A stretch of 48,261 nucleotides of DNA from Caballeronia turbans (GTDB lineage: Bacteria > Pseudomonadota > Gammaproteobacteria > Burkholderiales > Burkholderiaceae), in assembly GCA_001544655.2 (NCBI GenBank), contig FCOD02000040.1:1-48261 (forward strand), read 5' to 3'. The stretch's first letter is position 1, and every line of letters begins with the position of its first letter. Below the pieces are notes generated by a model. The model made no database searches. It was not told the DNA's origin and saw only the letters and a list, made by a program, of their open reading frames with translations. Shown here piece after piece: positions 6,752 through 34,248 of this stretch. A program made the position numbers and the translations under genes.

Positions 6752-6755
6752 ATGG

Positions 6756-8765: not shown

Positions 8766-8831
8766 GGTGAGCGCGCCTCTACCGCGCGAGCGGTTTCGTT
8801 CAGCGGCGACGAAGAGGCGAAGCAGCAGTGC

Positions 8832-9926: not shown

Positions 9927-10535
9927 GCGTGGGGATGGTCGGATTCGCGCGAGATCATCGATTATATCAACGCCTTTCCTCGTTACTCCGCCATTAAGCG
10001 AAGACTTTTCCCGCCTCGATTCATTGCCTCGGCGATGTTTTCTGACGATGAGCGGCAGTGCACCTTCGATGCAAAGAAATGCTTCTTTCGATCATGTACG
10101 TAGTAGACCTATTGATAGCGGGGCCCCTCGATCTGAAGAGACAACGACTCTTGAGATCCGTGAAACATCTGATCGGCCCCCTCGCGACAAACAGAACAGA
10201 AATAACAGAAGTGTCGCTAAGCGGTTTGCTCGCCGCTGCTGGGATCCATTCTCGCGACGTCGCGCGGTGACCGCGTCGGGCCCAAAGTAGGTTCAAAGGA
10301 TCCAGCCGTATTCGACATCCGGGTATACCTGTAGGAAGGACATCGGTCCAATGCTCGCGCGGGTTACACCACGATGCGGGAAACCCCCTACATAGCTTTC
10401 ATTCAAGATTGAATAGAGTTCAATCAACGAACGTCGTAGTATCTTGGTGTCTTACAGGCACCAGACGCTGATCGGATCGGCGCGCACGAGAATGCTTGAA
10501 CTATCGCTGCACTTCACTCGCGGAAGGAGACACAG
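9927..10535. other. Long divergent promoter region
   Basis: These 609 bases separate the LacI gene from the ABC permease. I see no convincing coding frame. The half nearest the permease holds two overlapping palindromes at 10401-10424 and a degenerate TGTAGGG-type site at 10374-10392. A GGAAGGAGA ribosome site precedes the permease. A leader and extra regulatory sites are likely, but no fold with a known riboswitch pattern was recognised. Confidence 0.5.
10401..10424. promoter_or_regulatory. Two overlapping palindromes before the ABC operon
   Basis: ATTCAAgaTTGAAT (10401-10414) is a perfect 6-2-6 palindrome. Its right arm overlaps the start of ATTGAAtagagTTCAAT (10408-10424), a perfect 6-5-6 inverted repeat. 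They lie about 110 bases upstream of the permease start and are candidate operators for the LacI or IclR protein of this locus. No experimental link is known to me. Confidence 0.5.
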
Positions 10536-11402: not shown

Positions 11403-11472
11403 CGTCGAGAACGAAAGAGCGATTGGCCCGATGTCGCCGTGGCCAACACCAACACCTTTGGAGACTAACAAG

Positions 11473-12480
11473 ATGCTTCGTTTTATCAGCCGCACGCTGG
11501 CCGCAAGCGCTGTGTCGTCAGCGTTGGTTTTTGGAGTGAGTGCCACCGCCGTCGCAGCGACGCCTGTCACATTCCAGCTGAATTGGGTCGCAGGGGGCTC
11601 GAACGCGGGGTTTGCCGCGGCGCTGACCGAGGGTTACTACAAGGAAGCGGGCCTTGACGTCACGTTGATCGAAGGCAATGGATCGGGCAATACAGCTCAA
11701 CTCGTGGCCGCGAATCGCGTGCAGTTGGCCTACGCCGATGCCGTCGCGGTGAGTCAGCTCATCGCGAAGGGCGCGCCGATGAAGGTCATCTCGACAGTCT
11801 ATCAATCCAACCCTAACGAAGTCTCGGCGCTGAAGAAGACGAATATCAACTCGATCAAGGACCTCAAAGGCAAGAAGGTGGGCGTTCCGTCCGGTTCGTC
11901 TCAAACGACGATGCTTCCGCTTTTCCTGAAGGCGAACGGGCTGAAGGAATCGGAGGTGAACCTGATCAACATGCCGTTGACGTCCATGGTTCCGACCTTG
12001 TTGCAAGGGCAAGTCGACGCGATCCTCGGATCGATCGATTCGTATCAGATTCAGCTGGAAGCGCAAGGCGCGCAGTTGACCAACTTTCGCTTCGCGGACT
12101 ACGGCGTGCCGACCGTCAGCACGTCGATCTTCGCGAACGAAACCTATCTCAAGGAGAACAGCGAGGTGGTCAAGAAGTTCGTTGCTGCGAGCCTGAAAGG
12201 CTGGAGCTTCGCGCTCGATAACCCGGCCAAGGCAATCAAGGATCTGAAGGCGGTCTTCCCGAATCTGTCGGAGAAGACGGCGACAGCAGAGCTTGCGGCC
12301 ATCACGCCGCTCTTTTGCAGCGGCGGCGCGAAGTACGTAGGTAAAGCGGAAGACGCGCAGTGGGTGAAGACGCAGGATCTCTTGTCGCAGGTCGGTCTGT
12401 TGCCCGCGGGTCGCGACCCGAAGTCGTATTACACGAACGATTTCCTTCCGCCGACGTCGGCCATGCGTGCGTGCAAGTGA
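11473..12480 (+). CDS. ABC importer periplasmic binding protein, NitT/TauT family
   Basis: A 335-aa protein with a Sec signal peptide of about 29 residues (ending SATAVAA). The mature part has the family's opening VTFQLNWVAGGSNAGFAAAL, the ligand-site segment EGNGSGNTAQLVAANRVQLA and LKGKKVGVPSGSSQTTMLPL. I chose the ATG at 11473 because TTTGGAGA precedes it and it opens a proper signal sequence; an earlier in-frame ATG at 11431 adds a non-signal stretch. NMT1/THI5-like proteins of this type bind varied small molecules. It is the determinant of what this cassette takes up. Confidence 0.88.
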   Translation: MLRFISRTLAASAVSSALVFGVSATAVAATPVTFQLNWVAGGSNAGFAAALTEGYYKEAGLDVTLIEGNGSGNTAQLVAANRVQLAYADAVAVSQLIAKGAPMKVISTVYQSNPNEVSALKKTNINSIKDLKGKKVGVPSGSSQTTMLPLFLKANGLKESEVNLINMPLTSMVPTLLQGQVDAILGSIDSYQIQLEAQGAQLTNFRFADYGVPTVSTSIFANETYLKENSEVVKKFVAASLKGWSFALDNPAKAIKDLKAVFPNLSEKTATAELAAITPLFCSGGAKYVGKAEDAQWVKTQDLLSQVGLLPAGRDPKSYYTNDFLPPTSAMRACK

Positions 12481-12505
12481 CTAAAGAAGTAACTAAAGGA
12501 CCGTC

Positions 12506-13030
12506 ATGACTGAACAGCGAAACATGGGACTGCGTTACTCGGACCTCGAAGTCGGATTGAAATTTCGCAGCCCCGGACGAACGATCACGGATGCGGACCT
12601 GGTCGGGTTCGCAGGCCTTACAGGCGACTTCTCCGAACTTCATACGAGCGATGTGTACGCGCAAGCCAGCCAGTTCGGCCGCCGCGTCGCGCACGGCATG
12701 CTCGGGCTCGCTTACGCGCACGGCCTGATGTGGGCGCGCACGGGCGAGTTGCGCGAAACCGCGATCGCGTTTCTCGGGATCAACGAATGGAAGTTTCTCA
12801 ACCCCATCTTTGTCGGCGACACGATCTTCGTCAACTACGAGATCAGTGAGCTTCGCGAGAGCAAGTCGCGGCCGACGCAAGCCATCGCGACCTTCGATGT
12901 CTCGGTCGTGGATCAGGACAACCGGGTCGTTCAGAAGGGCAAAAAAGCTTTGCTGGTGTCCAAGGTTCCCCTTTCTGCTGTCGCAGCAAGTAATTCGTCC
13001 GCCGCGAGCGGCGAGGAGCGGAAGTCATGA
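12506..13030 (+). CDS. MaoC-like (R)-hydratase
   Basis: A hot-dog-fold protein of 174 aa. The hydratase motif is intact: TGDFSELHTSDVYA, giving the catalytic pair D41 and H46, followed by the GRRVAHGMLGLAYAHGL helix. Such proteins add water to enoyl-CoA thioesters, mostly giving (R)-3-hydroxyacyl-CoA; some act on mesaconyl-type C4-C5 thioesters. It sits between the binding protein and the ATPase of the importer, and its stop overlaps the ATPase start (ATGA). That placement ties uptake to a CoA-thioester route. Substrate unknown. Confidence 0.82.
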   Translation: MTEQRNMGLRYSDLEVGLKFRSPGRTITDADLVGFAGLTGDFSELHTSDVYAQASQFGRRVAHGMLGLAYAHGLMWARTGELRETAIAFLGINEWKFLNPIFVGDTIFVNYEISELRESKSRPTQAIATFDVSVVDQDNRVVQKGKKALLVSKVPLSAVAASNSSAASGEERKS

Positions 13031-13878
13031 GTAATCAGGTTGCAGAACAGCGGGACACTGCGACGAAGTCCGGCGTACCGATCAGTATTCGACGCGTCGC
13101 CAAGACCTTCGGCGAAGACAGCGACAAGCCGTTTCAGGCGCTCAAGGAAATCAATATCGACATCCAGCCGGGCGAGTTCGTCTCCATCGTCGGCGCTTCC
13201 GGATGCGGCAAGAGCACCTTGATGCTGATGATCGCGGGTCTGCTCAGGCAGAGTCAGGGCGAGATTCTGGTCAACGGCAAGCCGGTGACGAAGCCGATCA
13301 CCGATGTCGGGATCGCGTTTCAGGATCATTTGCTGCTCGAATTCAGAACGGCGCTCGAAAACGTGATGCTGCAGGCCGACATCCGCGGCCTGCCGAAGAA
13401 GAAGATCGAGGCACGTGCAAAGGATCTGTTCGAGCAATTGCGTCTGACGCATGCGATGCAGAAGTATCCGCGGCAGTTGTCGGGCGGTATGCGGCAGCGC
13501 GTCTCGCTCGTCAGAACGCTGGTTCACGATCCGTCCGTCCTTTTGATGGATGAACCGTTCGGCGCACTGGATGCATTGACCCGGCTTCAGGTCCGGATGG
13601 ACCTTGAGGCGCTGTGGCTGCGTCGCCGCCCGACCGTCGTCTTCATCACGCACAGCGTGGAAGAAGCGGTGGGGTTGTCAGACCGCATATTGGTGATGAG
13701 CCCGAATCCCGGTGAGGTGGTCGACGAGATTACGGTCCATCTGCCGCGGCCGCGTCCCATTGTGCTGGGCGACGCGCCGGAATTTGCGGCCTACGTCGAC
13801 CGCATCTATGGGCATTTCGAACGCATGGGCGTGCTGCACGGCATCGAGGTGCCTAAGGCTACATCGGCCGCATCGTAA
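13027..13878 (+). CDS. ABC importer ATPase, NitT/TauT family
   Basis: The cytoplasmic ATPase of the importer, 283 aa. Walker A is GASGCGKST (residues 56-64), the signature is LSGGMRQR (151-158), Walker B is LLMDEP (172-177) followed by the D-loop FGALDALTR, and the switch histidine is in VVFITHSVEEA. The Q-loop reads FQDHLLLEF. The C-terminus carries the short extension typical of SsuB/TauB-type ATPases. Its start overlaps the MaoC stop. It pairs with the permease at 10536. Confidence 0.9.
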   Translation: MSNQVAEQRDTATKSGVPISIRRVAKTFGEDSDKPFQALKEINIDIQPGEFVSIVGASGCGKSTLMLMIAGLLRQSQGEILVNGKPVTKPITDVGIAFQDHLLLEFRTALENVMLQADIRGLPKKKIEARAKDLFEQLRLTHAMQKYPRQLSGGMRQRVSLVRTLVHDPSVLLMDEPFGALDALTRLQVRMDLEALWLRRRPTVVFITHSVEEAVGLSDRILVMSPNPGEVVDEITVHLPRPRPIVLGDAPEFAAYVDRIYGHFERMGVLHGIEVPKATSAAS

Positions 13879-22655: not shown

Positions 22656-22741
22656 TTGACCCCCTTGTGTGTGCGGTTTCAGGATGAAACCGGATAGGAC
22701 CTTACTTTAATGTGGCTCATGCAAAGCTGGAAAACGGGCTG

Positions 22742-22760
22742 TGTAGGGAGATTCCCTACA
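22742..22760. promoter_or_regulatory. Perfect inverted repeat in the aldo/keto reductase promoter
   Basis: TGTAGGGAGATTCCCTACA has perfect 8-bp arms around GAT. It lies 87 bases upstream of the aldo/keto reductase start and 26 bases from the second AATG..CATT palindrome. A partial match (right arm complete, left arm degenerate) is at 10374-10392, in front of the ABC importer operon. Confidence 0.55.
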
Positions 22761-22786
22761 AGCAGACGCTGTGTATCGTGTCGCGA

Positions 22787-22804
22787 AATGATACCGGTTA
22801 CATT
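22787..22804. promoter_or_regulatory. Palindromic operator, copy 2
   Basis: AATGATACCGGTTACATT fits AATG-NN-ACCGGT-NN-CATT exactly, like the copy at 21607-21624. It lies 132 bases upstream of the aldo/keto reductase start. I did not find a third full copy in front of the ABC importer operon. Confidence 0.7.
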
Positions 22805-22853
22805 CGCCGTCCGGTGTATCAGATATCCTCCGGCTCCATCGGGCCGTGGTATC

Positions 22854-23010
22854 GAGACACATGAGGCGAAGATTTCCACGCTCGATAGAAAGGTCGGGCA
22901 GCTGACGACGGAAATCGACCTTCTTGAAAAATTGCCGCGCCTGCGTTTCGTGAGGGACAGCGAGAGCTCATTGATTATCAGCGGCCCGCGTCCCGTTCCA
23001 TCAGGGGATG
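22854..23010 (+). pseudogene. Possible scrap of an IS3-type OrfA
   Basis: In one plus-strand frame the sequence reads THEAKISTLDRKVGQLTTEI, DLLEKLPRLRFVRDSESS, then LIISGPRPVPSG. The heptad pattern with KVGQLT.E.DLL.K resembles the C-terminal leucine-zipper end of IS3-family OrfA proteins, as I remember them. There is no helix-turn-helix part and no OrfB. I am only moderately sure. Confidence 0.45.
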
Positions 23011-23098
23011 GCTCGCTTCTCGCGGCCTTGCAGCCAATCACAAGCCAGTTGCTCGAGTGATGCGCCAATATGGCCTGCCTGAAGATTTTTGATCAATG

Positions 23099-23128
23099 TT
23101 GACAAGCAAAAATACGGCGCTTTAGACT
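23099..23128 (+). promoter_or_regulatory. Probable sigma-70 promoter of the amide operon
   Basis: A perfect -35 hexamer TTGACA (23099-23104) is followed after 18 bases by TAGACT (23123-23128), four of six matches to the -10 consensus. Transcription would start near 23135, placing the first hairpin of the ANTAR leader at the very 5' end of the RNA. The start site is inferred from position only. Confidence 0.55.
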
Positions 23129-23136
23129 GGGCCCAT

Positions 23137-23189
23137 TCCTCGAGGCCCGACAAAGATGTCCGCCCGAGGACTCGGCACAGAAGCCCCCT
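23137..23189 (+). ncRNA. Tandem-hairpin RNA leader, likely bound by AmiR (ANTAR)
   Basis: Hairpin 1 (23137-23170) pairs TCCTCG with CGAGGA, then GGC with GCC, then GAC with GTC, and closes on the hexaloop AAAGAT (23152-23157). Hairpin 2 pairs GGC (23174-23176) with GCC (23183-23185) around the hexaloop ACAGAA (23177-23182), with a possible outer AGG/CCT pairing. Both loops have A at position 1 and G at position 4, which is what I know of ANTAR-bound RNA. The 3' arm of hairpin 2 is the 5' arm of the terminator that follows, so the two structures exclude each other. AmiR, an ANTAR protein, is encoded in this operon at 30165. Amides would relieve termination through AmiC. Confidence 0.75.
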
Positions 23190-23223
23190 GACGAACCGAC
23201 GGTTCGTCAGGGGGCTTTTTTTT
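23182..23223 (+). terminator. Strong leader terminator (attenuator) of the amide operon
   Basis: A perfect 16-bp stem, AGCCCCCTGACGAACC (23182-23197) against its complement (23201-23216), with the loop GAC, is followed by eight T residues (23216-23223). It is 48 bases before the first operon gene and downstream of that operon's likely promoter, so it must be a conditional terminator. No other gene ends just upstream on this strand. Confidence 0.9.
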
Positions 23224-23270
23224 GTCCGAAATTTCCCCCTTGTTATAGCGCTCATCACTGGAGAACCCGC

Positions 23271-24506
23271 ATGTTGCTGAAGCCGTCGGGCTGGATGCGT
23301 CTCGCCCTCACCGCAGGACTTGCAGTGACTTCGCTCGCGTCGAGCGCCGCCGATCCCGTGAAAATCGGCTTGCTCGAGGACGCTTCGGGAAACTTCGCAC
23401 TGGCAACCATTCCGAAGATCCACGCCACACAACTCGCGGTCGATGAAATCAACGCGAAGGGCGGCATTCTCGGACGTCCGGTGACGCTGATCGCGTACGA
23501 CACGCAGTCGGACAACACCAAGTTTCAGGAACTCGCGCGGCGCCTCGTCCAGACGGACAAGCCCGATGTCATCTTCGGCGCGTTCTCCAGCGCCTCGCGC
23601 GAAGCGATTCGGCCCATCATGGACCGTGCCCATCAGCTTTACTGGTACGACAACCAGTACGAAGGCGGCGTCTGCGATACGAACACTTTCGTCACCGGCG
23701 CGGTGCCCGAGCAGCAATTCTCGACACTCATTCCATGGATGATGCAGAAGTACGGCAAGAAGGTGTACACGATCGCAGCCGACTACAACTTCGGGCAGAT
23801 TTCGGCGGAATGGGTGCGCAATATCGTCAAGGAAAACGGCGGCACGATGGCTGGTGAGGAATTCATTCCGCTGTCCGTGTCGCAGTTCGGCCAGACGATC
23901 CAGAACATTCAAAAGGCAAAGCCCGACTTCGTGGTCACGCTGCTGGTCGGCGCGAATCAGGCCTCGTACTACGAGCAACAGGCGTCGGCGCATCTGAACC
24001 TTCCGATGGCGAGTTCGGTCAACGTCGGTCAGGCATACGAGCACAAGCGCTTCAAACCGCCCGCGCTCAAGGACATGTACGTGACCGCGAATTACGTCGA
24101 AGAAGTGGATTCACCGGCGAGCAACGACTTCAAGAAGCGCTTTCACGCCAAGTTCCCGAACGAGCCGTACATCAACCAGGAAGCGGCGAACGCCTACGAC
24201 GCCATCTACCTCTACAAGGCGGCCGTGGAAAAGGCGAAGTCGACGAGTCAGGATGCGGTGCGCAAGGCGCTGGAAAGCGGCGACATCTGCACGACGGGCG
24301 CGCAGGGCAAGGTCTGCATCGATCCGAAGAGCCACCACGCGAGCCACACGATCTATCTGGTGCACGTGAAGGAAGATCACTCCGTAGACATTCCGAAGGT
24401 GTGGGACGACGTCCAGCCGTACTGGCTCGGAAAGGTCGGATGCGATCTGCCGAACAAGCCCGATCACCGTCAGTACACGCCGTCGAATCTTCCCAAGAAG
24501 TCCTGA
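23271..24506 (+). CDS. ABC importer binding protein, urea/short-chain amide type
   Basis: A periplasmic binding protein of 411 aa with a Sec signal peptide of about 26 residues (ending SLASSAAD). The mature protein is of the UrtA/FmdD/AmiC-like type I fold: DPVKIGLLEDASGNFALATI, then LAVDEINAKGGILGRPVTLI and SASREAIRPIM. The ATG at 23271 has GGAGA upstream and follows the attenuator. It binds urea, formamide or a related amide in known relatives. It heads a five-gene importer, and a formamidase-type enzyme, AmiC and AmiR follow, so an amide is the likely ligand here. Confidence 0.88.
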   Translation: MLLKPSGWMRLALTAGLAVTSLASSAADPVKIGLLEDASGNFALATIPKIHATQLAVDEINAKGGILGRPVTLIAYDTQSDNTKFQELARRLVQTDKPDVIFGAFSSASREAIRPIMDRAHQLYWYDNQYEGGVCDTNTFVTGAVPEQQFSTLIPWMMQKYGKKVYTIAADYNFGQISAEWVRNIVKENGGTMAGEEFIPLSVSQFGQTIQNIQKAKPDFVVTLLVGANQASYYEQQASAHLNLPMASSVNVGQAYEHKRFKPPALKDMYVTANYVEEVDSPASNDFKKRFHAKFPNEPYINQEAANAYDAIYLYKAAVEKAKSTSQDAVRKALESGDICTTGAQGKVCIDPKSHHASHTIYLVHVKEDHSVDIPKVWDDVQPYWLGKVGCDLPNKPDHRQYTPSNLPKKS

Positions 24507-24509
24507 TCC

Positions 24510-24549
24510 GAGGCCGGCGCGCGTTCGACAGACGCAGGGCGCCGGCCTC
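24510..24549 (+). repeat. 11-bp inverted repeat after the binding-protein gene
   Basis: GAGGCCGGCGC (24510-24520) pairs perfectly with GCGCCGGCCTC (24539-24549) around an 18-base loop. There is no T run. It lies between the binding-protein gene and the first permease gene, the usual position for an RNA hairpin that protects the upstream message and lets the binding protein be made in excess. Confidence 0.6.
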
Positions 24550-24566
24550 CTGAACGTGGAGGATGC

Positions 24567-25436
24567 ATGGCCACTCTACCGAATGTCTATTCGCTCGTTT
24601 ATCAGTTCGGCGACAACTTCGCCTATCTGGTGCTCGCGGCGCTCGGTCTCGCGGTGATCTTTGGCATGATGGGCGTCATCAATCTCGCGCACGGCGAGTT
24701 CATCATGTGCGGGGCGTACGTCACCATCATCGCGGCGAAGCGCGGCGTGCCGCTGCCGCTCGCCATGCTGCTCGGCGCGATCGCCGCGGCGCTCGCGGGC
24801 GTGATCGTCGAAAGGCTCGTGATCCGTCACCTCTACGACCGGCTGTTCGATTCCGTCGTGGCGACATGGGCGATCAGCCTCATCGTGCAGCAGACGATGC
24901 TGCTCGTCGCCGGTCCATCCATCGAAGGCATCGGCACGCCGTTCGGCTCGTTCTCGCTCGGCGATTATTCGTTTTCGACTTATCGCGCCGTGCTGCCGCT
25001 CATTGCGCTGGCGATTCTTTTCGGCCTCTATCTGCTGTTCTTCAAGACGAATTACGGCGTCTGCGCACGCGCAACGATCCAGAACGCGAATATCGCGCAA
25101 TGCCTCGGCCTGCGCACGGACCGGCTCTACACGCTGACCTTCGCGCTCGGCGCAGGGCTCGCGGGTCTCACCGGCGCGCTCTACGCCCCGACGATGACGG
25201 CGGTGCCGACGATGGGCAGTAACTTCATCGTGCAGGCTTTCGTTTCGGTGGTGGTCGGCGGCGCGAACGTGATCGCCGGTACGACACCAGCCGCTGGCGT
25301 GCTCGCCATCATCCAGACGGGGCTCACGGCGTCTTACGGGCAACTGTTCGGGCAGATCGGCCTGCTGGTGACGGTCATCGTCGTGATCCGGCTGATGCCG
25401 CAAGGCCTCGGTAATCTCTTCACCCGCTTGCGCTAG
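24567..25436 (+). CDS. ABC importer permease 1, LivH/UrtB type
   Basis: An inner-membrane permease of 289 aa in the branched-chain amino acid/urea family. It has about eight hydrophobic segments and the conserved VINLAHGEFIMCGAYV near residue 40, and LGLRTDRLYTLTFALGAGLA in the second half. The ATG at 24567 has GTGGAGGA upstream. It forms the heterodimeric channel with the next gene. UrtB of true urea importers is usually longer because of an N-terminal extension; this one is short, like LivH or FmdE. Confidence 0.88.
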   Translation: MATLPNVYSLVYQFGDNFAYLVLAALGLAVIFGMMGVINLAHGEFIMCGAYVTIIAAKRGVPLPLAMLLGAIAAALAGVIVERLVIRHLYDRLFDSVVATWAISLIVQQTMLLVAGPSIEGIGTPFGSFSLGDYSFSTYRAVLPLIALAILFGLYLLFFKTNYGVCARATIQNANIAQCLGLRTDRLYTLTFALGAGLAGLTGALYAPTMTAVPTMGSNFIVQAFVSVVVGGANVIAGTTPAAGVLAIIQTGLTASYGQLFGQIGLLVTVIVVIRLMPQGLGNLFTRLR

Positions 25437-25445
25437 GAGGCAGAC

Positions 25446-26516
25446 GTGAAGCAAACGAAAATGCCATCCATGAGCGCTTGCCCGCGTGCGCTGCAAACCG
25501 TGCCGTGGCTCATTGCGCTGTGTCTGCCGCTCGTCGTCGATGCGAACACCAGCGGCAATCTCGCGTACTGCCTGCTATGGGCATTCAGCGCGGTCGGCCT
25601 TGCGGCGATGTGGGGCTATGGCGGCATCCTGTCGTTCGGACAGACGGCCTTCTTCGGGCTGTCGGGATATAGCTACGGCATCTTCACGCTGAACTACAAC
25701 GACACGTGGTTCGAGTCGTGGCTCGGTCTCGGCGCGGGGCTGGCGGTGAGCGTCGCGGTCGCGACGCTGATCGGATACATGATCTTCTATGGCCGCATCA
25801 AGGGCGTGTTCATCGGCATCGTCACGCTTTCGGTGACGCTCGTGCTCGAGACCTTCATGTCGCAGACGGCCGGGCCGCAGTGGGCGATCGGCGAGGCGCG
25901 GCTCAACGGCTACAACGGCATGGGCGGCATGTCGCCGCTGACGATTCCCTGGCCGGGCGGACCGCTCACGCTGGAGAACGCGAGCTTCTATTACCTCGTG
26001 CTGATCCTGCTGATCGCGGTGTACGCCGTCATGCGCAAGCTGCTCGACGGCCCTTTCGGTCTCACGCTCATCGCGATCCGCGAGAACCCGCAACGTGCGG
26101 AGATGCTGGGCGTCGATATTCGCCGTCATCAATTGCTCGTGTTCGTGCTCGGTTGCACGCTGGGTGGCGTGTCGGGCGCGCTGTACACCATCTGGGGCGC
26201 CTACATCACACCATCGACGATGGGTCTCACGGCCGCCGCGATGCCGGTCATCTGGGTCGCGACGTCGGGCCGCAAGAGCATCGGCGGAACCATTCTCGGC
26301 ACCGCGTTGCTCGTCTGGCTCTCGCAGAATCTCGCGGTGTACGGCAGCCAGTACGCGTTGATCCTGCTAGGGGCGATCCTGCTGATCGTCGTGCTGGCCG
26401 CGCCCGAAGGCCTGCTGCCCTTCGTCACGCGGCAGCTCAAACGTTTCTCCAGCCGCACGAGCGACGGCACCCGCCACGGTGGCGCGTGTCTCAAGCGAGA
26501 GGAGGGGAAGTCATGA
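25446..26516 (+). CDS. ABC importer permease 2, LivM/UrtC type
   Basis: The second channel subunit, 356 aa with a GTG start at 25446 preceded by GGAGG. About ten hydrophobic segments are visible, with the family signature YGGILSFGQTAFFGLSGYSY near residue 60 and RAEMLGVDIRRHQLLVFVLG near 215. The C-terminus is basic and cytoplasmic. It starts nine bases after permease 1 and its stop overlaps the start of the next gene. Confidence 0.88.
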   Translation: MKQTKMPSMSACPRALQTVPWLIALCLPLVVDANTSGNLAYCLLWAFSAVGLAAMWGYGGILSFGQTAFFGLSGYSYGIFTLNYNDTWFESWLGLGAGLAVSVAVATLIGYMIFYGRIKGVFIGIVTLSVTLVLETFMSQTAGPQWAIGEARLNGYNGMGGMSPLTIPWPGGPLTLENASFYYLVLILLIAVYAVMRKLLDGPFGLTLIAIRENPQRAEMLGVDIRRHQLLVFVLGCTLGGVSGALYTIWGAYITPSTMGLTAAAMPVIWVATSGRKSIGGTILGTALLVWLSQNLAVYGSQYALILLGAILLIVVLAAPEGLLPFVTRQLKRFSSRTSDGTRHGGACLKREEGKS

Positions 26517-27223
26517 CGACGCTACTCGAAACGCGCGGACTCAAGAAGCACTTCGGCGGCGCGCACGTCATCAACGGTATCGACTTCAGGATCGACGCGG
26601 GCGAGATTCGCTGCGTGATCGGGCCGAACGGCGCGGGCAAGAGCACGTTCTTCAAGCTCATCACGGGCGAGCATCGTCCCTCGGAAGGCAGCGTGATGTT
26701 TCTTGGCCAGGACATGAGCCATGTGCTCCCGCACGAGCGCATCCGCATGGGCATGAGCATTAAGTTCCAGATTCCCGGCGTGTTCCCGGACCTGAACGTG
26801 CGCCAGCATCTGACACTGTCGCTGCATCGCGCAAAGGACGATCGCCCCGAAAGCCTCGACGAATTGCTGCAACGCTTCATGCTGGAAAACGAAGAGCACG
26901 TGCTCGCGCGCAATCTGTCACACGGCAAGAAGCAGTGGCTCGAAATCGCGATGGCCGTGTCGCTGCGGCCGAAACTGCTGTTTCTCGATGAACCCGTGGC
27001 GGGTATGTCGGTGGAGGAAACGCACGCGACGGGCGAGCTGATCAAGCGTCTGTCGGCGGCCGGTCTTACGATGATGGTGGTCGAGCACGACATGACCTTC
27101 GTCAAGCAGATCGCGTCGCGCGTGACGGTCCTGCACGGCGGAAGCCTGCTCGCGGACGGGCCGCTCGAAGACATCCTCGCGCGCGACGATGTCGCGGAAG
27201 TCTATCTGGGGAAGAAGAAATGA
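26513..27223 (+). CDS. ABC importer ATPase 1, LivG/UrtD type
   Basis: A cytoplasmic ATPase of 236 aa. Walker A is GPNGAGKST, the signature region is NLSHGKKQWLEI (the LSHG.KQ variant typical of UrtD), Walker B is LLFLDEP and the switch histidine is in MVVEHDMTFV. The ATG at 26513 overlaps the permease stop (ATGA). In the family this subunit pairs with the UrtE-type ATPase encoded next. Confidence 0.9.
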   Translation: MTTLLETRGLKKHFGGAHVINGIDFRIDAGEIRCVIGPNGAGKSTFFKLITGEHRPSEGSVMFLGQDMSHVLPHERIRMGMSIKFQIPGVFPDLNVRQHLTLSLHRAKDDRPESLDELLQRFMLENEEHVLARNLSHGKKQWLEIAMAVSLRPKLLFLDEPVAGMSVEETHATGELIKRLSAAGLTMMVVEHDMTFVKQIASRVTVLHGGSLLADGPLEDILARDDVAEVYLGKKK

Positions 27224-27927
27224 GCGCGTTGTTCGAGGTGTCAGGCGTGGAAGCGGGATATGGCGGCGGCCGGGTGCTCAACGGCGTATCGGTCGGCATC
27301 GGGCGAGGCGAGGTGCTGGCGCTGATCGGGCGCAATGGCGTCGGCAAGACCACGCTGATGCGCGCGCTGATCGGTCTCGTCAAACTCGATGCCGGTGAAA
27401 TCAGGCTCGACGGCGAAGCGATCGGCCACGAGAAACCGTACGTTCGCGCGCAGAAAGGCATGGGCTACGTGCCGCAAGGCCGCGAGATATTCGGCGCGCT
27501 GACGGTCGCCGAAAACCTGCAGGTCGGCGCGCAGGCGAATCGCGCGCAGGCAGCGCAGATGCGCGAGCAGGTCGTCGGCTATTTTCCTATCCTGAAGAAA
27601 CGCTACACGCAGAAGGCCGGGACCATGAGCGGCGGGGAACAGCAGCAACTCGCCATTGCGCGCGCGCTCATCAGCGCGCCCAAGGTGCTGTTGCTCGATG
27701 AACCCTCGGAAGGCATACAGCCGTCGATCGTCGATCTGATCGGCGAGACGCTGCAGCAGATCGCGTGCGAGACGGGCATCGGCGTGGTGCTCGTCGAGCA
27801 GGACATGGGCATGGTCGAGCGTATCGCGACACGCTGCTGCGTGATGGACAAGGGCCGTATCGTCGAAACATTGAGCCCCGCGCAACTCGGAGACGAGCAA
27901 CTGATTCGCCAGTATCTGGCACTGTGA
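27220..27927 (+). CDS. ABC importer ATPase 2, LivF/UrtE type
   Basis: The second ATPase, 235 aa. Walker A is GRNGVGKTT, the Q-loop region is YVPQGREIFGALTV, the signature is MSGGEQQQL, Walker B is VLLLDEP followed by SEGIQPSIV, and the histidine position of the switch reads VEQDMG. Its ATG overlaps the stop of ATPase 1. The SEGIQPSIV stretch is typical of UrtE-type proteins. Confidence 0.9.
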   Translation: MSALFEVSGVEAGYGGGRVLNGVSVGIGRGEVLALIGRNGVGKTTLMRALIGLVKLDAGEIRLDGEAIGHEKPYVRAQKGMGYVPQGREIFGALTVAENLQVGAQANRAQAAQMREQVVGYFPILKKRYTQKAGTMSGGEQQQLAIARALISAPKVLLLDEPSEGIQPSIVDLIGETLQQIACETGIGVVLVEQDMGMVERIATRCCVMDKGRIVETLSPAQLGDEQLIRQYLAL

Positions 27928-27940
27928 CGGAGAGCGGAAC

Positions 27941-28927
27941 ATGAAATGGCTTGAAGAATCGATCATGATGAAGCGCGGTGTCGGCGCGGATCGGGAACCG
28001 GTGGAGCATCACCTCACCGAAGAGAAGCAGAAGACATATCACTACACCATCGGGCCGTATTCGCAGCCGGTGCTGCACGTGAAGCCCGGGGATCGCGTCG
28101 TGGTGGAAACGCGCGATGCCTTCGAAGGCAAGATCAGGGAGGAGACCGACAAGCCCTCTCAGGTGCTCCAGGTGCCGTTTCTCAATCCGCAGAACGGGCC
28201 GATCATGATCGAAGGCGCGGAGAAGGGCGATGTGGTCGCGGTGTACATCGAGAAGATGGCGCCGCGCGGCGACGATCCGCACGGCTTCTGCTGCATGATT
28301 CCGAACTTCGGCGGACTGACGGGCACCGACTACACCGCGCTGCTCAACGAGCCTTTGCCGGAAGTCGTGCGCAAGATCAGGATCGACGAAGAGAACGTGT
28401 ACTGGAGCAAGCGCAACACGTTGCCGTATAAGCCGCATATCGGCACGTTGAGTCTTTCGCCGGAAATAGATTCGATCAATTCGCTCACGCCCGACAATCA
28501 CGGCGGCAACATGGATGTGCCGGACATGGGGCCGGGGAGCATCACGTATCTGCCGGTTCGCTCGCCCGGCGGGCGTCTCTTTATCGGCGATGCGCATGCC
28601 TGTCAGGGCGACGGCGAAGTGTGCGGCACGGCAGTGGAGTATCAAAGCACGACGACCGTTCGCGTCGATCTCATCAAAGGATGGAAGATCGACTGGCCGC
28701 GGCTCGAAAACGAGGATGCGCTGATGAGCATCGGCAGCGCGCGGCCGCTTGAGGATGCGACGCGCATCGCCTATCGCGAACTCGTGCTATGGATGGCCGC
28801 CGAGTATGGCTTCGACAAGTGGGACGCGTACATGATGCTGAGTCAGGTCGGGCGCGTTCGCCTCGGCAATTTTGTCGATCCAAAATACACGGTTGGCGCG
28901 ATGGTCGCCAAGCACTACCTCAAGTAA
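27941..28927 (+). CDS. Acetamidase/formamidase (FmdA/AmdA) family enzyme
   Basis: A 328-aa member of the FmdA_AmdA family, which hydrolyses formamide, acetamide or related short amides to ammonia and the acid. The family's opening HYTIGPYSQPVLHVKPGDRV is near residue 30, then TLSLSPEIDSINSLTPDNHG and the metal-site region GDAHACQGDGEVCGTAVEYQ. It is shorter than the approximately 400-residue methylotroph formamidase and closer to the roughly 300-residue bacterial acetamidases. It starts 13 bases after the importer ATPase, so uptake and hydrolysis are coupled. Confidence 0.85.
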   Translation: MKWLEESIMMKRGVGADREPVEHHLTEEKQKTYHYTIGPYSQPVLHVKPGDRVVVETRDAFEGKIREETDKPSQVLQVPFLNPQNGPIMIEGAEKGDVVAVYIEKMAPRGDDPHGFCCMIPNFGGLTGTDYTALLNEPLPEVVRKIRIDEENVYWSKRNTLPYKPHIGTLSLSPEIDSINSLTPDNHGGNMDVPDMGPGSITYLPVRSPGGRLFIGDAHACQGDGEVCGTAVEYQSTTTVRVDLIKGWKIDWPRLENEDALMSIGSARPLEDATRIAYRELVLWMAAEYGFDKWDAYMMLSQVGRVRLGNFVDPKYTVGAMVAKHYLK

Positions 28928-29008
28928 AACATCTGTCAGACGAATAGAAGCAGAGACGACCAAAGCGCGGAGGGACCGCTTCGCGCGCATTAGAGAGCGT
29001 GTCACGAA

Positions 29009-30163
29009 ATGGCTTTGTCCGACCCCATCAAAGTGGGCCTGCTGTGCTCGACGCGCGGTTCGACCGCGTTGCTGGAGCAGTCTCAGTGGCGCGGCGCCTG
29101 CCTCGCTGTCGAGGAAATCAATGCGCGCGGCGGTATCGACGGACGCGAACTCGTCGTCCTTCATTACGATCCCGGCTCCGATCCGGTGTCGTTTCGTGAG
29201 CTTGCGGAGCGGCTGATCGTGAAGGACGGCGTCAATACCATCTTCGGCGGCTATACGTCGACCAGTCGCAAGGCGATGCTGCCCGTCGTCGAAAAGCACA
29301 ACCGTCTGCTGATCTACGCGCAGATGTACGAGGGCTTCGAGTATTCGGACAACATCATCTATAGCGGCGCGTCGCCCAATCAGAATGGTGTGCAGCTCGC
29401 GGACTTCATGACCGAGACGTTCGGCGCGCGCGTGTACTTCGTCGGCTCGAGCTATGTCTATCCGTACGAGTGCAATCGTACGATGCAGGAACTGCTGCTT
29501 CAGCATCCTGAAGGCGCGATTCTCGGCGAGCGGTATCTGCCGCTCGATGCGACGCGCGATCAGTTCGCGCACGTCATTGCGGACATCAGGCGCAAGTCGC
29601 CGGACTGGATCTTCTGCACGGTGATCGGGGAGACCGTGCCGTACCTCTACGATGCCTATGCGCATGCCGGCTTCGATCCGGCCACGATGCCCATCGGCAG
29701 TCTCAATACCTCCGAGACCGAAATTCACGCGATGGAACGCGGCATCGCGGCGGGGCATATCACGGCGGCGCCTTATTTCCAGAGCATCGACACCGAAGAG
29801 AATCATCGCGCGGTCGCGCATCATCAGTCGCGCTACGGCACGGATACGCCCACGGACATGAACTGGGAGGCTGCGTATTACCAGATGCACATGTTCGCCG
29901 AAGCATTCGCGCGCGCAGGCTCGGACGAGCTTGCGACCATCATGCCGCATCTGCTCGGTTCGGAATTCACCGCGCCGCAAGGCCGCGTGCGCATCGATCC
30001 CGTGAATCATCACATGGCGCTTTATCCGCGCATCGGCCGGGCGAATGCGCACGGCCAGTTCACCATCCTGCGCGAATCGAAGTTCGCTGTCGGCCCCGAT
30101 CCGTACATGACGCGTCAGACGCTCGGGGACTGGGTCACGAAGTTGAGCACGCGGGATTACTGA
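29009..30163 (+). CDS. amiC: Amide sensor AmiC
   Basis: A 384-aa periplasmic-binding-protein fold without a signal peptide (it opens MALSDPIKVGLLCSTRGSTA), so it works in the cytoplasm. This is the mark of AmiC, which holds AmiR inactive until an amide binds. Conserved stretches include AVEEINARGGIDGRELV, VNTIFGGYTSTSRKAMLPVV and YVYPYECNRTMQELL. It lies immediately before amiR (one base apart) and shares its fold with the importer's binding protein at 23271. Substrate preference cannot be read off; acetamide-like short amides are the known ligands. Confidence 0.92.
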   Translation: MALSDPIKVGLLCSTRGSTALLEQSQWRGACLAVEEINARGGIDGRELVVLHYDPGSDPVSFRELAERLIVKDGVNTIFGGYTSTSRKAMLPVVEKHNRLLIYAQMYEGFEYSDNIIYSGASPNQNGVQLADFMTETFGARVYFVGSSYVYPYECNRTMQELLLQHPEGAILGERYLPLDATRDQFAHVIADIRRKSPDWIFCTVIGETVPYLYDAYAHAGFDPATMPIGSLNTSETEIHAMERGIAAGHITAAPYFQSIDTEENHRAVAHHQSRYGTDTPTDMNWEAAYYQMHMFAEAFARAGSDELATIMPHLLGSEFTAPQGRVRIDPVNHHMALYPRIGRANAHGQFTILRESKFAVGPDPYMTRQTLGDWVTKLSTRDY

Positions 30164-30164
30164 C

Positions 30165-30815
30165 GTGAGCGCGCGCGCGGACAGAGGCCAGCGAAGCCTC
30201 ACCAGTTCGATCCTCGAGCGCAATGCGCGCGTGGTCGTTTTCCATCCGGATGACGACGACGGGCAAACGCTCGCGAACCATCTGCGGCGCATGGGCTTTC
30301 AGGTGGAGCGATGTTGGCCGCCGACGGACACGCTGCCCGAATGCGTCGACCTCGTGTTTCGCGCGCTACTGCCGGAAGAGCGTGCGCCGAAGGGCGAATG
30401 GTCCGGACCGGATGCGCCGCCCTTGATCTGCGTGGTGGCCTATGAGAATCCGACGTTCATCGATCAGGCCATCAAGCTCGGCGCCGATGGCATCGTCACC
30501 ACGCCGATTCGCGCATCGGGATTGCTGTCGACCGTGGTGATGGCGTTGCATCACGCGAAGCGTTCGCGTCAGCACGCGCAGCGCATCGCCAAGCTCGAAC
30601 AGAAACTGCTCGACAGCCGGCATCTGCAGGAAGCCAAAAACATTCTGATGATCATGCATCGCGTGAGTGAGCGCGATGCATACGACATGCTGCGCGCCCA
30701 GGCGATGGAGAAGCGCGTGACCATCGACGACATCTGTCATTCCGTCATTCAGGCGGGCGAAGTGTTGCAGATTGCGCGCGGCATGACATCCGGGGACGGA
30801 CGCGAGAAAGAGTGA
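30165..30815 (+). CDS. amiR: ANTAR antitermination regulator AmiR
   Basis: A 216-aa RNA-binding antiterminator with GTG start. Residues 20-125 form a receiver-like domain lacking the usual phospho-acceptor pattern (VVVFHPDDDDG). A coiled coil follows (about 133-152), then the ANTAR helices at about 145-200, with AKNILM, SERDAYDMLRAQAMEKR and the closing ICHSVIQAGEVL. In the known amidase system AmiR, released from AmiC, binds leader RNA and prevents termination. The leader at 23137-23223 has the matching hairpins and terminator, seven kilobases upstream at the head of this operon. Confidence 0.92.
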   Translation: MSARADRGQRSLTSSILERNARVVVFHPDDDDGQTLANHLRRMGFQVERCWPPTDTLPECVDLVFRALLPEERAPKGEWSGPDAPPLICVVAYENPTFIDQAIKLGADGIVTTPIRASGLLSTVVMALHHAKRSRQHAQRIAKLEQKLLDSRHLQEAKNILMIMHRVSERDAYDMLRAQAMEKRVTIDDICHSVIQAGEVLQIARGMTSGDGREKE

Positions 30816-30860
30816 GCGCGCCGTCACGTTTTCTGATCGACACGCACAGGAGCGGCAAAC

Positions 30861-31625
30861 ATGGACCTGCAACTGAAAGGCTTGAAGGCGATCGTCACCG
30901 GCGGCACCAAGGGCATCGGGCTTGCCATAGCACGAACATTGGCAGCGGAAGGCGCGGATGTGGCTATCTGCGCGCGCGACGAAGCCGCCGTCGAAGCGAC
31001 CGCGAGCGTGCTCGCCGAACTGAGCGGCGCACGGGCATCGGGCGCGGCCATCGATGTATCGGACGGCGATGCGCTCAAGGCGTGGGTCGCGCGTGTCGGT
31101 GCGCAGTGGGGCGGGCTCGACATCATCGTGGCCAACGTGAGTGCGCTTGCGATCGGCAACGACATCGGATCGTGGCGCAAGGAATTCGAGACGGACCTGC
31201 TCGGAACGGTCAATCTCGTCGATGCCGCCATGCCGTTTCTCGAGGCGAGCCGGGCCGCTTCGATCGTCGCGATATCCAGCGTGTCGGGACGCGAGATCGA
31301 CTTCGCGGCGGGGCCGTACGGCGTATTCAAGGCCGCGCTCGTTCACTACATGCAGGGGCTCGCGAATCAACTCGCGTCGAAGGGCATCCGAGCGAATACT
31401 GTGTCGCCGGGCAACGTGTATTTCGAGGGCGGCGTATGGGACTGGATCGAACATAACGATGCAGCGCTGTTCGAACGCGCGCTCGCATTGAATCCGACCG
31501 GACGCATGGGCCGGCCGCAGGAAATCGCCAACGCGGTGGCGTTTATCGCGAGTCCGGCGGCAAGCTTCGTGAGCGGGGCGAACTTCGTCGTCGATGGTGC
31601 GCTCACGCGCGGCGTGCAGCTTTGA
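30861..31625 (+). CDS. SDR-family oxidoreductase
   Basis: A classical short-chain dehydrogenase of 254 aa. The cofactor loop is TGGTKGIG (residues 13-20), with N92 in VANVS, serines 139-140 in ISSVSG, Y153 and K157 in YGVFK, and the C-terminal SGANFVVDGALTRG. It lies between amiR and the amidase in what looks like one operon. R39 after the second strand (ICARDEAA) suggests NADP preference. Its role in amide use is unclear; it may process an alcohol or keto group of the substrate. Confidence 0.85.
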   Translation: MDLQLKGLKAIVTGGTKGIGLAIARTLAAEGADVAICARDEAAVEATASVLAELSGARASGAAIDVSDGDALKAWVARVGAQWGGLDIIVANVSALAIGNDIGSWRKEFETDLLGTVNLVDAAMPFLEASRAASIVAISSVSGREIDFAAGPYGVFKAALVHYMQGLANQLASKGIRANTVSPGNVYFEGGVWDWIEHNDAALFERALALNPTGRMGRPQEIANAVAFIASPAASFVSGANFVVDGALTRGVQL

Positions 31626-31649
31626 GCGGCAATTCAACAGGAGCATCGA

Positions 31650-33191
31650 ATGGAACAGGGCAGTGCAAAGGACATCGATCTGGACGCTCTCACGGTCGAC
31701 GCCGTGCAGGCGGGTTTTCGGGCGGGCACGTTTACGGCCGAGCAACTGACGCGTGCCTGCTTCGACAGAATCGAGCGCGACAACGTGAAGTACAACGCGC
31801 TGATCTTCCTGAACCCGGATGCAATCGACGATGCGCGCAGAATCGACGAACGGCGTGCTGCCGGTGAATCCCTGGGGCCGCTCGCGGGCGTGCCGGTGGT
31901 CATCAAGGATCCGATGGACATGGTCGGCTTTCCGACCACGGCGGGATGGGCGAAGCTGTACAGCAAGCGGGGCGGCATCGATCTGATGCCCGAGCGCGAT
32001 GCGCCGGTCGTTGCGCGCATGCGGCGCGCGGGCGCGATCCTGCTCGGGAAGACGAACGTGCCGATTCTGAGTCACACCGGATCGCATGCGAACGATAGCT
32101 GGGCCGGGCCGACCATAAATGTGTCAATGCCCGACCGCGTGCCGGGCGGCAGCAGCGCTGGGACGGCAGCGGCGGTGGCGTCGGGCATGGCGGTGCTCGG
32201 ACTCGCCGAGGAGACCGGCGGATCGATCCAGAACCCGGCTTCGGCGCAGGATCTCGTCGGCATCAAACCGACCATCGGGCTCGTGCCGAACGCGGGCGTC
32301 GTTCCGCTGTCCGGTAATCGCGACGTCGTGGGACCGATTGCGCGTAATGTGCGGGATGCGGCGCTGTGCCTCGACGCGCTTGCCGGCTATTCGAGCGAAG
32401 ATCCGAAGACGCTCGCCAGCGTCGGCCGTCAACCGGAGAGCGGTTATGCGTCGACGCTGAAGCCGGACGCGTTGAAGGGCAAGCGTATCGGCTTATACGG
32501 CCCCGGATGGCGCACGCAGCCGCTTTCGGATGAAGCCGCCGCGCTGTACGAGCGCGTGAAGAATGAGTTGACGCGGCTGGGCGCGGTCCTGATGGACGAT
32601 CCTTTCTCGGGCTCCGGTTTCGCCGACTTGAGGAAGCCGACGCCGCCGCTGGAGCATTTCGATGCGCGCGGTCTCGAATCCATTCCGTACGATCTCGAGA
32701 AGTATCTGCAACGGCTCGGCAAGCATGCGCCGCTCAAGAGCTTCGCGGAATTCGCCGAAGCGACGAGGGACGACGATGCATTCGGCCCCGAAGGCGTGCT
32801 TGGCTATCTGCATAGCCTCGCGGATTTCCGCTCGGCGCTGGCCGATCCGTCGCTGCCGCCCGAGATGCCCGAATTCATCGAACTGAAGGCGCGCTATCTG
32901 ACGATCTTCAATAGGGTGATGAGCACGCATCGGCTCGACGCGCTCGTCTTTCCGCAGATGCGATGCGAGCTTCCGCCGCTTCACGGCAAGGACCTCATCC
33001 AGGAGACGACGGTCGGCGAGATCAATATCGCGGGTCTACCGGGCATCGCAGTGCCGGCGGGCTACTATCGGTCGGGCTCCCCGTTCGGGCTGATCTTCGT
33101 CGGACGGCAGTGGGATGAGGCCGCGTTGCTCGGCTATGCGTACGCGTATGAGTGCGGCACGGGGCGCCGGAAGGTGCGCAGGGTCGATTGA
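31650..33191 (+). CDS. Amidase-signature family amidase
   Basis: A 513-aa hydrolase with the Ser-cisSer-Lys site: K86 in VVIKDPMDMVG, the GGSSAG motif at 166-171, and S192 in ETGGSIQNPAS. The length and the whole AS core are present. Members hydrolyse a wide range of amides, and this one is closest in style to uncharacterised amidases of soil Proteobacteria. It is the last gene of the amide operon and gives the locus a second, unrelated amide hydrolase. The nitrilase-type AmiE of the classical ami operon is missing. Confidence 0.88.
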   Translation: MEQGSAKDIDLDALTVDAVQAGFRAGTFTAEQLTRACFDRIERDNVKYNALIFLNPDAIDDARRIDERRAAGESLGPLAGVPVVIKDPMDMVGFPTTAGWAKLYSKRGGIDLMPERDAPVVARMRRAGAILLGKTNVPILSHTGSHANDSWAGPTINVSMPDRVPGGSSAGTAAAVASGMAVLGLAEETGGSIQNPASAQDLVGIKPTIGLVPNAGVVPLSGNRDVVGPIARNVRDAALCLDALAGYSSEDPKTLASVGRQPESGYASTLKPDALKGKRIGLYGPGWRTQPLSDEAAALYERVKNELTRLGAVLMDDPFSGSGFADLRKPTPPLEHFDARGLESIPYDLEKYLQRLGKHAPLKSFAEFAEATRDDDAFGPEGVLGYLHSLADFRSALADPSLPPEMPEFIELKARYLTIFNRVMSTHRLDALVFPQMRCELPPLHGKDLIQETTVGEINIAGLPGIAVPAGYYRSGSPFGLIFVGRQWDEAALLGYAYAYECGTGRRKVRRVD

Positions 33192-33354
33192 CCGGGTTCC
33201 CGGCGGGGGGCGAATGGGTCAAGCCGGTCGAAAGTCCACCGCGACGAAGGCGATCGCTGGCTGCGCGAGGTGGTGATCGACTGTTCGCGGAAACGGCGAT
33301 GCGAATGCGAAAAGCGAAGTCGTGAGAAAAAGCCGCGATGCATTCGTCACGCCG

Positions 33355-34248
33355 TCACGCCACCGGCAAGCCATTGCGCCTGCGTAGTTCGCGGATCAAC
33401 GCGCTGTGATCCAGCTCACCGTCACCATGCTCGACCATGTCGGTGAAGAGGCCGTCGACGAGCCCCAGCACCGGCAGCTCCAGCCCCACGCTGTGCGCGA
33501 AACCGAGCGCCGTCTTCGTATCCTTGATCTGATACTTGGCCGGCCCACCCGGCTTGAAATCCTGCGCGATCATGCGTGCCGCGTGCTGACGCAGGATCGT
33601 CGAGTCGGCGAATCCGCCGAGGAGCGCCGCGCGGACCTGCGCGGGATCGGCGCCGCCGCGTTCCGCGAGCAGCATCGCTTCGGCGACGGTGGCGATCGTG
33701 CTCGCGACCATCATCTGGTTGACGAGCTTCGCGAGCTGGCCCGTGCCCGCCGGGCCGATGCGCGTCGGACGGCCCATCGTCTGCAGCACGGCGCGCACGC
33801 GTTCGAATACCTCCGCCTCGCCGCCGGCCATGATCGCGAGCGTGCCGTCCTGCGCGCCTTTCTCGCCGCCAGAAACGGGCGCGTCGAGATAGCCGACGTC
33901 ACGCGCCGCTGCGGCCTGCGCGTGGCGCTGCGCGGTATCGACAGGAATCGAACTCATCACGATCAGCACGCTGCCCGCACGCATCCTGGCGACGATCCCG
34001 TCGTCGCCAAGCAGGAGGTCGTCGCACGCGGCGCCCGAGCTCTGCATGCAGATGACAACGTCCGCATCGCGCGCAGTTTCGCTTGCATGACCGACCACCT
34101 CGATGCCCGCCGACACGAGCGGCGCCGCCTTGTCCCGGGTGCGGTTCCACGCCGCGACCCGGTAGCCGGCGCCGGCCACGCGCCGGGCCATCGGCAAGCC
34201 CATGATGCCCGTGCCGATGAAACCTACTGCAAGGCTCGCGCGCATCAT
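33355..34248 (-). CDS. Beta-hydroxyacid dehydrogenase (3-hydroxyisobutyrate dehydrogenase family)
   Basis: A 297-aa NAD(P)-dependent dehydrogenase. The Rossmann loop is GFIGTGIMG (residues 9-17), the substrate site DAPVSGGEKGA (122-132), and the catalytic lysine K174 in GTGQLAKLVNQMM. Relatives include 3-hydroxyisobutyrate, tartronate semialdehyde and L-threonate dehydrogenases. It starts at 34248, overlapping the stop of the ABM gene, so the pair is co-translated. With the SAF-domain dehydrogenase and the TRAP importer it probably belongs to the use of a hydroxy or sugar acid. Confidence 0.88.
   Translation of the reverse strand: MMRASLAVGFIGTGIMGLPMARRVAGAGYRVAAWNRTRDKAAPLVSAGIEVVGHASETARDADVVICMQSSGAACDDLLLGDDGIVARMRAGSVLIVMSSIPVDTAQRHAQAAAARDVGYLDAPVSGGEKGAQDGTLAIMAGGEAEVFERVRAVLQTMGRPTRIGPAGTGQLAKLVNQMMVASTIATVAEAMLLAERGGADPAQVRAALLGGFADSTILRQHAARMIAQDFKPGGPAKYQIKDTKTALGFAHSVGLELPVLGLVDGLFTDMVEHGDGELDHSALIRELRRRNGLPVA

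Follow-up and report, generated by a model that had tools for sequence, protein, structure and literature searches.

What works the leader ahead of the ABC importer operon in Caballeronia turbans, and is it an RNA switch under the control of the operon's own AmiR protein? The window, i.e. the whole stretch of DNA analysed here, is 48,261 nucleotides long (contig FCOD02000040.1), and the original prediction placed in it an ANTAR-type RNA switch ahead of an importer/amidase operon. Here, we examined the operon, the leader and its orthologues, and judging from sequence and from related systems, the leader is very probably an AmiR-responsive ANTAR antitermination switch.

Genes of the operon and their regulators

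Ten genes lie on the same strand downstream of the leader.

23271..24506, + strand: importer substrate-binding protein, urea/short-chain-amide type (TIGR03669 over cut-off)
24567..25436, + strand: ABC importer permease, UrtB-like (profile match)
25446..26516, + strand: ABC importer permease, UrtC-like (profile match)
26513..27223, + strand: ABC importer ATPase, UrtD-like (start ATG 26513, overlapping the stop codon of the permease gene)
27220..27927, + strand: ABC importer ATPase, UrtE-like (profile match)
27941..28927, + strand: acetamidase/formamidase family enzyme, FmdA_AmdA (PF03069; 5ubu, E 2.2e-183)
29009..30163, + strand: AmiC amide sensor (AmiC of 1pea/1qo0, E 1.6e-81)
30165..30815, + strand: AmiR, pseudo-receiver and ANTAR RNA-binding domain (PF21332, PF03861)
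30861..31625, + strand: SDR oxidoreductase
31650..33191, + strand: amidase-signature enzyme (PF01425)

The last two genes are found downstream in many Burkholderiaceae orthologues and in none of the Enterobacterales loci L075-L088. When started at 26513, the UrtD-like ATPase has the same length as its annotated orthologue in L177 (the profile search was run from 26459). The original prediction of an operon with an importer and an amidase is right on both counts, but the core enzyme is of the FmdA_AmdA family and not AmiE. The leader does not stand directly before a nitrilase-type amiE, as it does in the classical ami operon; the next gene is that of the importer, and the enzyme belongs to PF03069. 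The importer comes first, as had been proposed, and the leader stands before the ABC importer binding-protein gene in every orthologue examined. A 116-amino-acid frame at 22710-23060, between an aldo/keto reductase gene and the promoter, has no Pfam match and is probably no gene.

Both proteins of the expected AmiC-AmiR pair are encoded in the operon, and their genes are one base apart. Residues 9–378 of AmiC align on residues 10–378 of Pseudomonas AmiC without an N-terminal extension, and this alignment points to a binding-protein fold located in the cytoplasm. The importer binding protein has 29 residues before its conserved domain, which begins at residue 30, as in a secreted protein. The two N-termini fit a sensor inside the cell and a receptor outside it.

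AmiR has an AmiR_N pseudo-receiver (PF21332, 95.4 bits) and a C-terminal ANTAR domain (PF03861, 44.6 bits), both over cut-off, and its gene at 30165 provides the genome with a cognate ANTAR protein. Among solved proteins it matches AmiR of 1qo0 (E 5.8e-20) and EutV 6wsh (E 1.4e-13), and it is only distantly related to Pseudomonas AmiR. The RNA-contact residues Lys149, Glu160, Tyr164 and Met172 of EutV are retained and Arg142 is replaced by Ser, in EutV numbering inferred through a two-residue offset of the printed chain. Between the window and L075-L088, identity is 80–83% for the importer binding protein, 76–79% for the first permease and 47–54% for AmiR. This conserved importer beside a divergent AmiR may reflect horizontal transfer, or a regulator that has evolved faster. 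The genome also has a second ANTAR gene (G000:C30:431476-431634, in L001 and L184; 69 bits). Because a leader-model search at E 10 gave no match on its contig, this second gene probably reads another RNA.

Anatomy of the leader

Four elements make up the leader, all of them upstream of the importer gene.

23099..23128, + strand: sigma-70-type promoter, TTGACA-18-TAGACT (consensus scan)
23137..23170, + strand: hairpin 1 (P1), imperfect outer stem plus GAC-AAAGAT-GTC (fold and conservation)
23174..23185, + strand: hairpin 2 (P2, the putative antiterminator), GGC-ACAGAA-GCC (conservation)
23179..23223, + strand: intrinsic terminator, stem 23183-23197/23201-23215 plus A-U/G-U extension, then a T tract

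The promoter boxes, TTGACA at 23099-23104 and TAGACT at 23123-23128, are separated by an 18-nt spacer and agree with the consensus at 10 of 12 positions, which bears out the TTGACA promoter that had been placed ahead of the hairpins. It is the sole promoter-like site that a consensus scan finds in 22800-23500, and no further one was found by scanning 23100-33600. The stem of P1 is long and imperfectly paired (−18.1 kcal/mol, z −5.1); the inner element of P1 is at 23149-23160 and its hexaloop, AAAGAT, at 23152-23157. RNAfold puts an extra A-U pair in P1, leaving a tetraloop in place of the hexaloop. The P2 hexaloop, ACAGAA, lies at 23177-23182. Both loops have A1 and G4, as the original prediction had read from the letters, and each of the two closely spaced hairpins has at least three pairs. 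P2 by itself is thermodynamically unremarkable, with three pairs, −3.9 kcal/mol and a z score of +0.24, i.e. not above shuffled sequence; the comparative support for P2 is its conservation rather than its stability.

The terminator is strong (−36.2 kcal/mol, z −8.6). Its stem has 15 Watson-Crick pairs and not the 16 first counted, or 19 with the A-U/G-U extension, and the eight T residues are at 23216-23223 as described. The 5′ arm of the terminator contains the 3′ arm of P2 (23183-23185, common to both) and the last four bases of the P2 loop; P2 and the terminator are therefore mutually exclusive, in agreement with the original prediction. The RNA from 23135 to 23225 folds at −55 kcal/mol wholly into P1 and the terminator, and a stretch too short to form the terminator, 23135-23190, folds at −22 kcal/mol into P1 and P2. 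On these fold energies, P2 would therefore win only if it is held before the terminator is complete.

A likely ribosome-binding site, GGAG, is located at 23260, more than 35 bases past the T tract. Its position bears on the idea that AmiR does act on the leader but with a net effect other than antitermination, for example on RNA stability or translation. ANTAR RNAs possibly acting on translation are mentioned in PMC3369931. However, P2 overlaps the terminator and not this ribosome-binding site, and we give such an effect almost no chance compared with antitermination by AmiR.

Conservation of the leader among orthologues

We asked how often such an arrangement occurs by scanning for a strict motif, with A1/G4 in both loops, three-pair stems and an uninterrupted overlapping terminator. 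Across both strands of the window and of the 36 named loci (L053-L088), 1,473,602 bases in all, the scan found 15 places, and 15/15 are the window leader or its orthologues; the scan is blind to orthologous leaders whose loop differs or whose terminator stem is interrupted. The same scan found 0 motifs in 40 first-order Markov windows.

The 36 named loci were found by AmiR, and 33 of them contain the start of the importer gene; L053, L065 and L074 end short of it. The leader precedes the same importer gene in 33/33 of these loci, which comprise 19 from Burkholderiaceae (Caballeronia, Paraburkholderia and Burkholderia) and 14 from Enterobacterales (eight Yersinia, three Brenneria, one Klebsiella, one Prodigiosinella and one MAG). 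Several whole-genome loci described below are the same strains as other loci, so the sets are not additive. A gap-free alignment of leaders has 33 rows, one of which is a classical amiE leader, and 29 distinct sequences. Loop start to loop start measures 25 nt in 33/33 rows, the constrained spacing expected of such hairpins, and 24 or 25 nt in leaders read from other layouts. TTGACA with its 18-nt spacer, 22–26 nt before loop 1, is kept in all 37 importer-type rows.

Orthologous leaders without conserved hexaloops were the outcome that the original prediction had named as speaking against it. Instead, the P1 loop has both A1 and G4 in 29/29 distinct leaders. For P2 the claim of A1/G4 stands in part: A1 is present in 28/29 and G4 in only 22/29, the other 7/29 having A4. 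These seven distinct rows are all from Enterobacterales and correspond to 14 loci. The P2 arms GGC and GCC are invariant in 29/29 distinct leaders. Of the two, GGC lies outside the terminator, and the three bases ahead of it have a mean identity of 63%.

This invariant arm bears on whether the element is a plain unregulated terminator, i.e. an insulator between an upstream transcript and the operon in which the hexaloops are incidental. A strong terminator would insulate by itself, and P2 is weak when taken alone. However, the terminator lies after, and not ahead of, the sole promoter-like site; the one upstream + strand frame tested (22710-23060) matches no Pfam family; and the GGC stays fixed outside the terminator while the three preceding bases vary. 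We therefore rejected the plain insulator, which we regard as very unlikely, on the position of the terminator behind the promoter and on the invariant GGC.

Likewise, the alignment weighs on attenuation by a leader peptide. The window has an 11-codon frame whose ATG at 23156 overlaps loop 1 and whose end lies in the terminator stem, and an ATG is present in 17/29 distinct rows. However, the start codon varies over the 29 rows (17 ATG, 5 TTG, 1 GTG, 3 CTG and 3 ACG), and no ribosome-binding site is visible by eye before the ATG. Leader-peptide attenuation was rejected because the start codon is not conserved, and its likelihood is negligible.

Covariation, which had been proposed as a check on the switch, gave a divided result. 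In the terminator, 5/14 predicted consensus pairs show pair-keeping changes on both sides, and all five such pairs are in the terminator; these double changes compare lineages whose terminators may not align base for base. The P2 pairs never vary and so give no covariation for P2. The covariation score of the two hairpins is 0.085 in register versus 0.188 after a one-column shift of the 3′ partners. The middle inner pair of P1 is broken in 10/29 distinct rows, and the P1 outer stem changes register between lineages. RNAalifold over all rows draws neither P1 nor P2 and pairs the GGC arm with the GCC of the right side of P1.

In the window this alternative would pair GCC at 23162-23164 with GGC at 23174-23176, and its three pairs are possible in 33, 32 and 30 of the 33 rows. 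It might be a third, alternative fold, and the GGC arm may be kept for this pairing, for P2, or for both. Because P2 lacks covariation and the pairing of GGC is ambiguous, support for P2 comes from four other features: the bases of the loops, the constant register, the stretch shared with the terminator, and the partner protein.

Distribution and operon layouts

We then searched genomes with R2, a covariance model restricted to the two hairpins. The Caballeronia turbans genome gave one strong match (E 2.4e-18), and the next best was at 0.97. In the family sample, 50/299 genomes match at E 0.01. Half of these matches are strong, with E values of 2.0e-8 or lower, and the other 25 are weak, ranging from 1.5e-4 to 9.5e-3. 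The gene immediately downstream of the 25 strong matches is that of the importer in 17 genomes and amiE, heading a classical ami operon, in 8. The 17 genomes with importer leaders are exactly those with an AmiR at least 62% identical to that of the window (17/17). Five of the 25 weak matches were inspected (L119-L123), and none has these genes.

This linkage matters for the idea that a small-molecule riboswitch, or a protein other than AmiR, works the leader. A structured leader with a terminator would fit a riboswitch in outline. However, no Rfam family reaches its gathering score anywhere in the window, the 28 matches from a permissive search with the leader all fall short of their gathering scores and mostly lie on the terminator hairpin, and no exception to the linkage with AmiR occurs in the family sample. 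We rejected the riboswitch for want of an Rfam match at gathering score, and consider this explanation as a whole extremely improbable beside a leader read by AmiR.

Matches become sparse in broader samples. At class level, 29/369 genomes match R2 at E 0.01, including the genome of the window, and all others are weak; the corresponding loci (L132-L160) show no AmiC, AmiR, importer binding protein (SBP) or AmiE within at most ~3 kb. AmiR itself is rare at this level, being found in 4/369 genomes at E 1e-15, again including the genome of the window. At order level, 7/300 genomes match R2 at E 0.001 including the same genome, and the six others are weak; L161, L162 and L164 are real, and L163, L165 and L166 look like chance.

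The layouts of these operons vary. In L161, L162 and L164 the leaders lie between divergent amiC-amiR genes and an importer operon that ends in amiE, and these operons are not orthologous to that of the window. L174 has the same layout, with divergent amiC-amiR and an importer-amiE operon. In L188-L191 and L194, amiC-amiR point away from an importer-FmdA-SDR operon, whose importer gene follows the leader, and in L049-L051 and L193 the order is importer-amiE-amiC-amiR in one direction. Putative importer-first control by AmiR leaders is recurrent across these layouts. In L197-L207, an AmiE-like gene (27–31%, not in all), the importer, often an amidase, amiC and amiR run in one direction, and the AmiR residue that corresponds to Met172 is Thr. 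No leader was found there by a pattern known to miss some: it missed known leaders in L167, L169, L171, L174, L188-L191, L193 and L194, and its blank in L195-L207 is not proof of absence. Another leader pattern gave no match in L181-L187, and the same pattern also missed the leader of L187 that R2 finds, so that its blank in L181-L186 is likewise no proof of absence.

Within the genome of the window, R2 gives only the one strong match. A leader pattern allowing up to 2 mismatches found 16 sites there versus 6 for a reversed control pattern, with only the leader exact, and seven of the other 15 sites (L125-L131) showed no second full motif on inspection. A wider AmiR regulon in this genome was therefore rejected, given one strong R2 match and one exact pattern site.

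Three further loci deserve description. L187 comes from a conjugative Klebsiella plasmid; at 4024-13582, flanked by insertion sequences, it has the entire eight-gene operon together with the leader (R2, E 6e-17), and a nitrilase-type gene comes next. In L175, a second leader-like element at 7552 (− strand), on the strand opposite the amiE leader, has loops AACAGC and AGCAGA and an overlapping terminator. L185, from Aminobacter, has a pair similar to amiC-amiR at 7845-11357, between an allantoin cluster and a urea-importer/urease operon; a leader of the AmiR kind was not found between those clusters by searches that can miss variants.

Proposed mechanism and comparison with known systems

The anatomy of the leader, its conservation, its linkage to AmiC-AmiR and the homology of both proteins are established here. 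Antitermination by AmiR is well supported by sequence comparison, and we infer its individual steps (ligand release, RNA binding and antitermination) from Pseudomonas ami and Enterococcus eut (PMC3369931, PMC8934654) and from what is generally known of AmiC-AmiR. Transcription would start constitutively, presumably six to nine bases after the −10 box, and such a start would make P1 the extreme 5′ end of the RNA. Without amide, AmiC would hold AmiR, the terminator at 23179-23223 would form, and polymerase would stop before the operon, leaving basal read-through. A short-chain amide bound to AmiC would release AmiR, whose ANTAR dimer would grip loop 1 and, 25 nt on, loop 2. This would keep P2 closed and withhold the foot of the terminator 5′ arm, so that polymerase continues into the operon. 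Read-through would yield the importer, which would be made first, the FmdA-type amidase, AmiC and AmiR, plus the SDR oxidoreductase and second amidase in the window. Because amiC-amiR lie behind the switch, induction would feed back on its own regulators.

Such a mechanism would place not a single enzyme gene but all the genes of an operon for uptake and breakdown under AmiC-AmiR antitermination, in Caballeronia, Paraburkholderia and relatives; Enterobacterales and plasmids have the same leader. Furthermore, the importer that is first to be switched on probably brings in the sensor's own ligand, which would make the circuit a positive feedback loop.

The ami system of Pseudomonas aeruginosa shares with this operon the AmiC-AmiR pair, a dual-hexaloop leader with a terminator, and amide catabolism. 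The two hairpins of the Pseudomonas amiE leader are described in PMC3369931. Unlike that system, the first gene here encodes an ABC importer binding protein, and the enzyme is of the FmdA_AmdA family instead of nitrilase-type AmiE. The eut system of Enterococcus faecalis likewise has two A1/G4 hexaloop hairpins, the second overlapping a terminator, and the EutV contacts Lys149, Glu160, Tyr164 and Met172 are those kept in AmiR here. However, EutV is a response regulator that is phosphorylated, whereas the receiver of AmiR is a pseudo-receiver and it is AmiC that restrains the protein in Pseudomonas; moreover, Arg142 of EutV is Ser here.

Literature searches of open-licence papers found no description of this leader. 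The Methylophilus fmd genes reportedly combine an amide/urea importer with FmdA, and we know of no AmiC-AmiR control there. An acetamidase operon on a Klebsiella plasmid, described in 2026, resembles ours in having AmiC, AmiR and ABC importer genes in one operon, with the difference that its enzyme is named amiE; the word “leader” is absent from the main text of that paper (PMC13209695). L187 is another Klebsiella plasmid record, with operon and leader orthologous to those of the window. A 2012 paper (PMC3369931) described ANTAR RNAs from Burkholderia and ones preceding urea transporters; they agree with the present leader in the kind of RNA, the bacterial group and the class of the first gene. 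The kind of RNA is therefore already known, and the idea is less new than the original prediction implied.

Loop position 4 and AmiR residue 160

The leaders that differ at position 4 of a hexaloop, together with their AmiR proteins, offer an evolutionary series on how ANTAR proteins read RNA. A4 occurs in the P1 loop of six rows, L049, L050, L051, L175, L192 and L193 (for L049 and L051 the leader was read from L171 and L172, respectively, neighbouring pieces of those two genomes). In these six rows, AmiR position 160 is Asp (3), Lys (2) or Arg (1), and the Glu160 equivalent is absent in 6/6. In the 21 rows with G4 in P1, it is present in 20/21, with Asp in one (L173). A tree of these 27 AmiR rows, which were chosen for having a findable leader (L190, L194 and L195-L207 excluded), shows two changes of the loop-1 label, i.e. 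two events. The association of loop-1 A4 with residue 160 in these sequences is suggestive only. PMC8934654 describes how EutV contacts G4: the base stacks on Tyr164 and, when it belongs to loop 2, also bonds to Arg142, Lys149 and Glu160.

From this, the ANTAR rule might be A1/R4, with position 4 of loop 1 read by the Glu160 equivalent (Glu with G4, and A4 in two separate AmiR lineages in which Glu was lost to Asp, Lys or Arg) and with loop 2 free of the code; we offer this tentatively and lean against it. Against a general code, A4 in the P2 loop coexists with Glu160 in the Enterobacterales rows, in L174 and in L188-L191. Against a loop-1 code, L173 combines G4 with Asp. If true, the relation would amount to an ANTAR recognition code, by which regulators could be matched to leaders, and made orthogonal in the laboratory, on the basis of sequence.

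Two further features of the loops were observed. All 14 Enterobacterales leaders (L075-L088) have A4 and G5 in the P2 loop, as AATAGA or ATCAGA, against the published A1/G4 rule, and a P2 loop with A4 is also found in several other layouts. In addition, the C-G pair closing the hexaloop is followed immediately, on the stem side, by a C-C or C-U mismatch, which affects hairpin 1 in some lineages and hairpin 2 (GGCC-AAAAAA-GCCC) in others; it is seen in L071-L073, L075-L088, L170-L173 and L175, and in L174, L188-L191 and L194.
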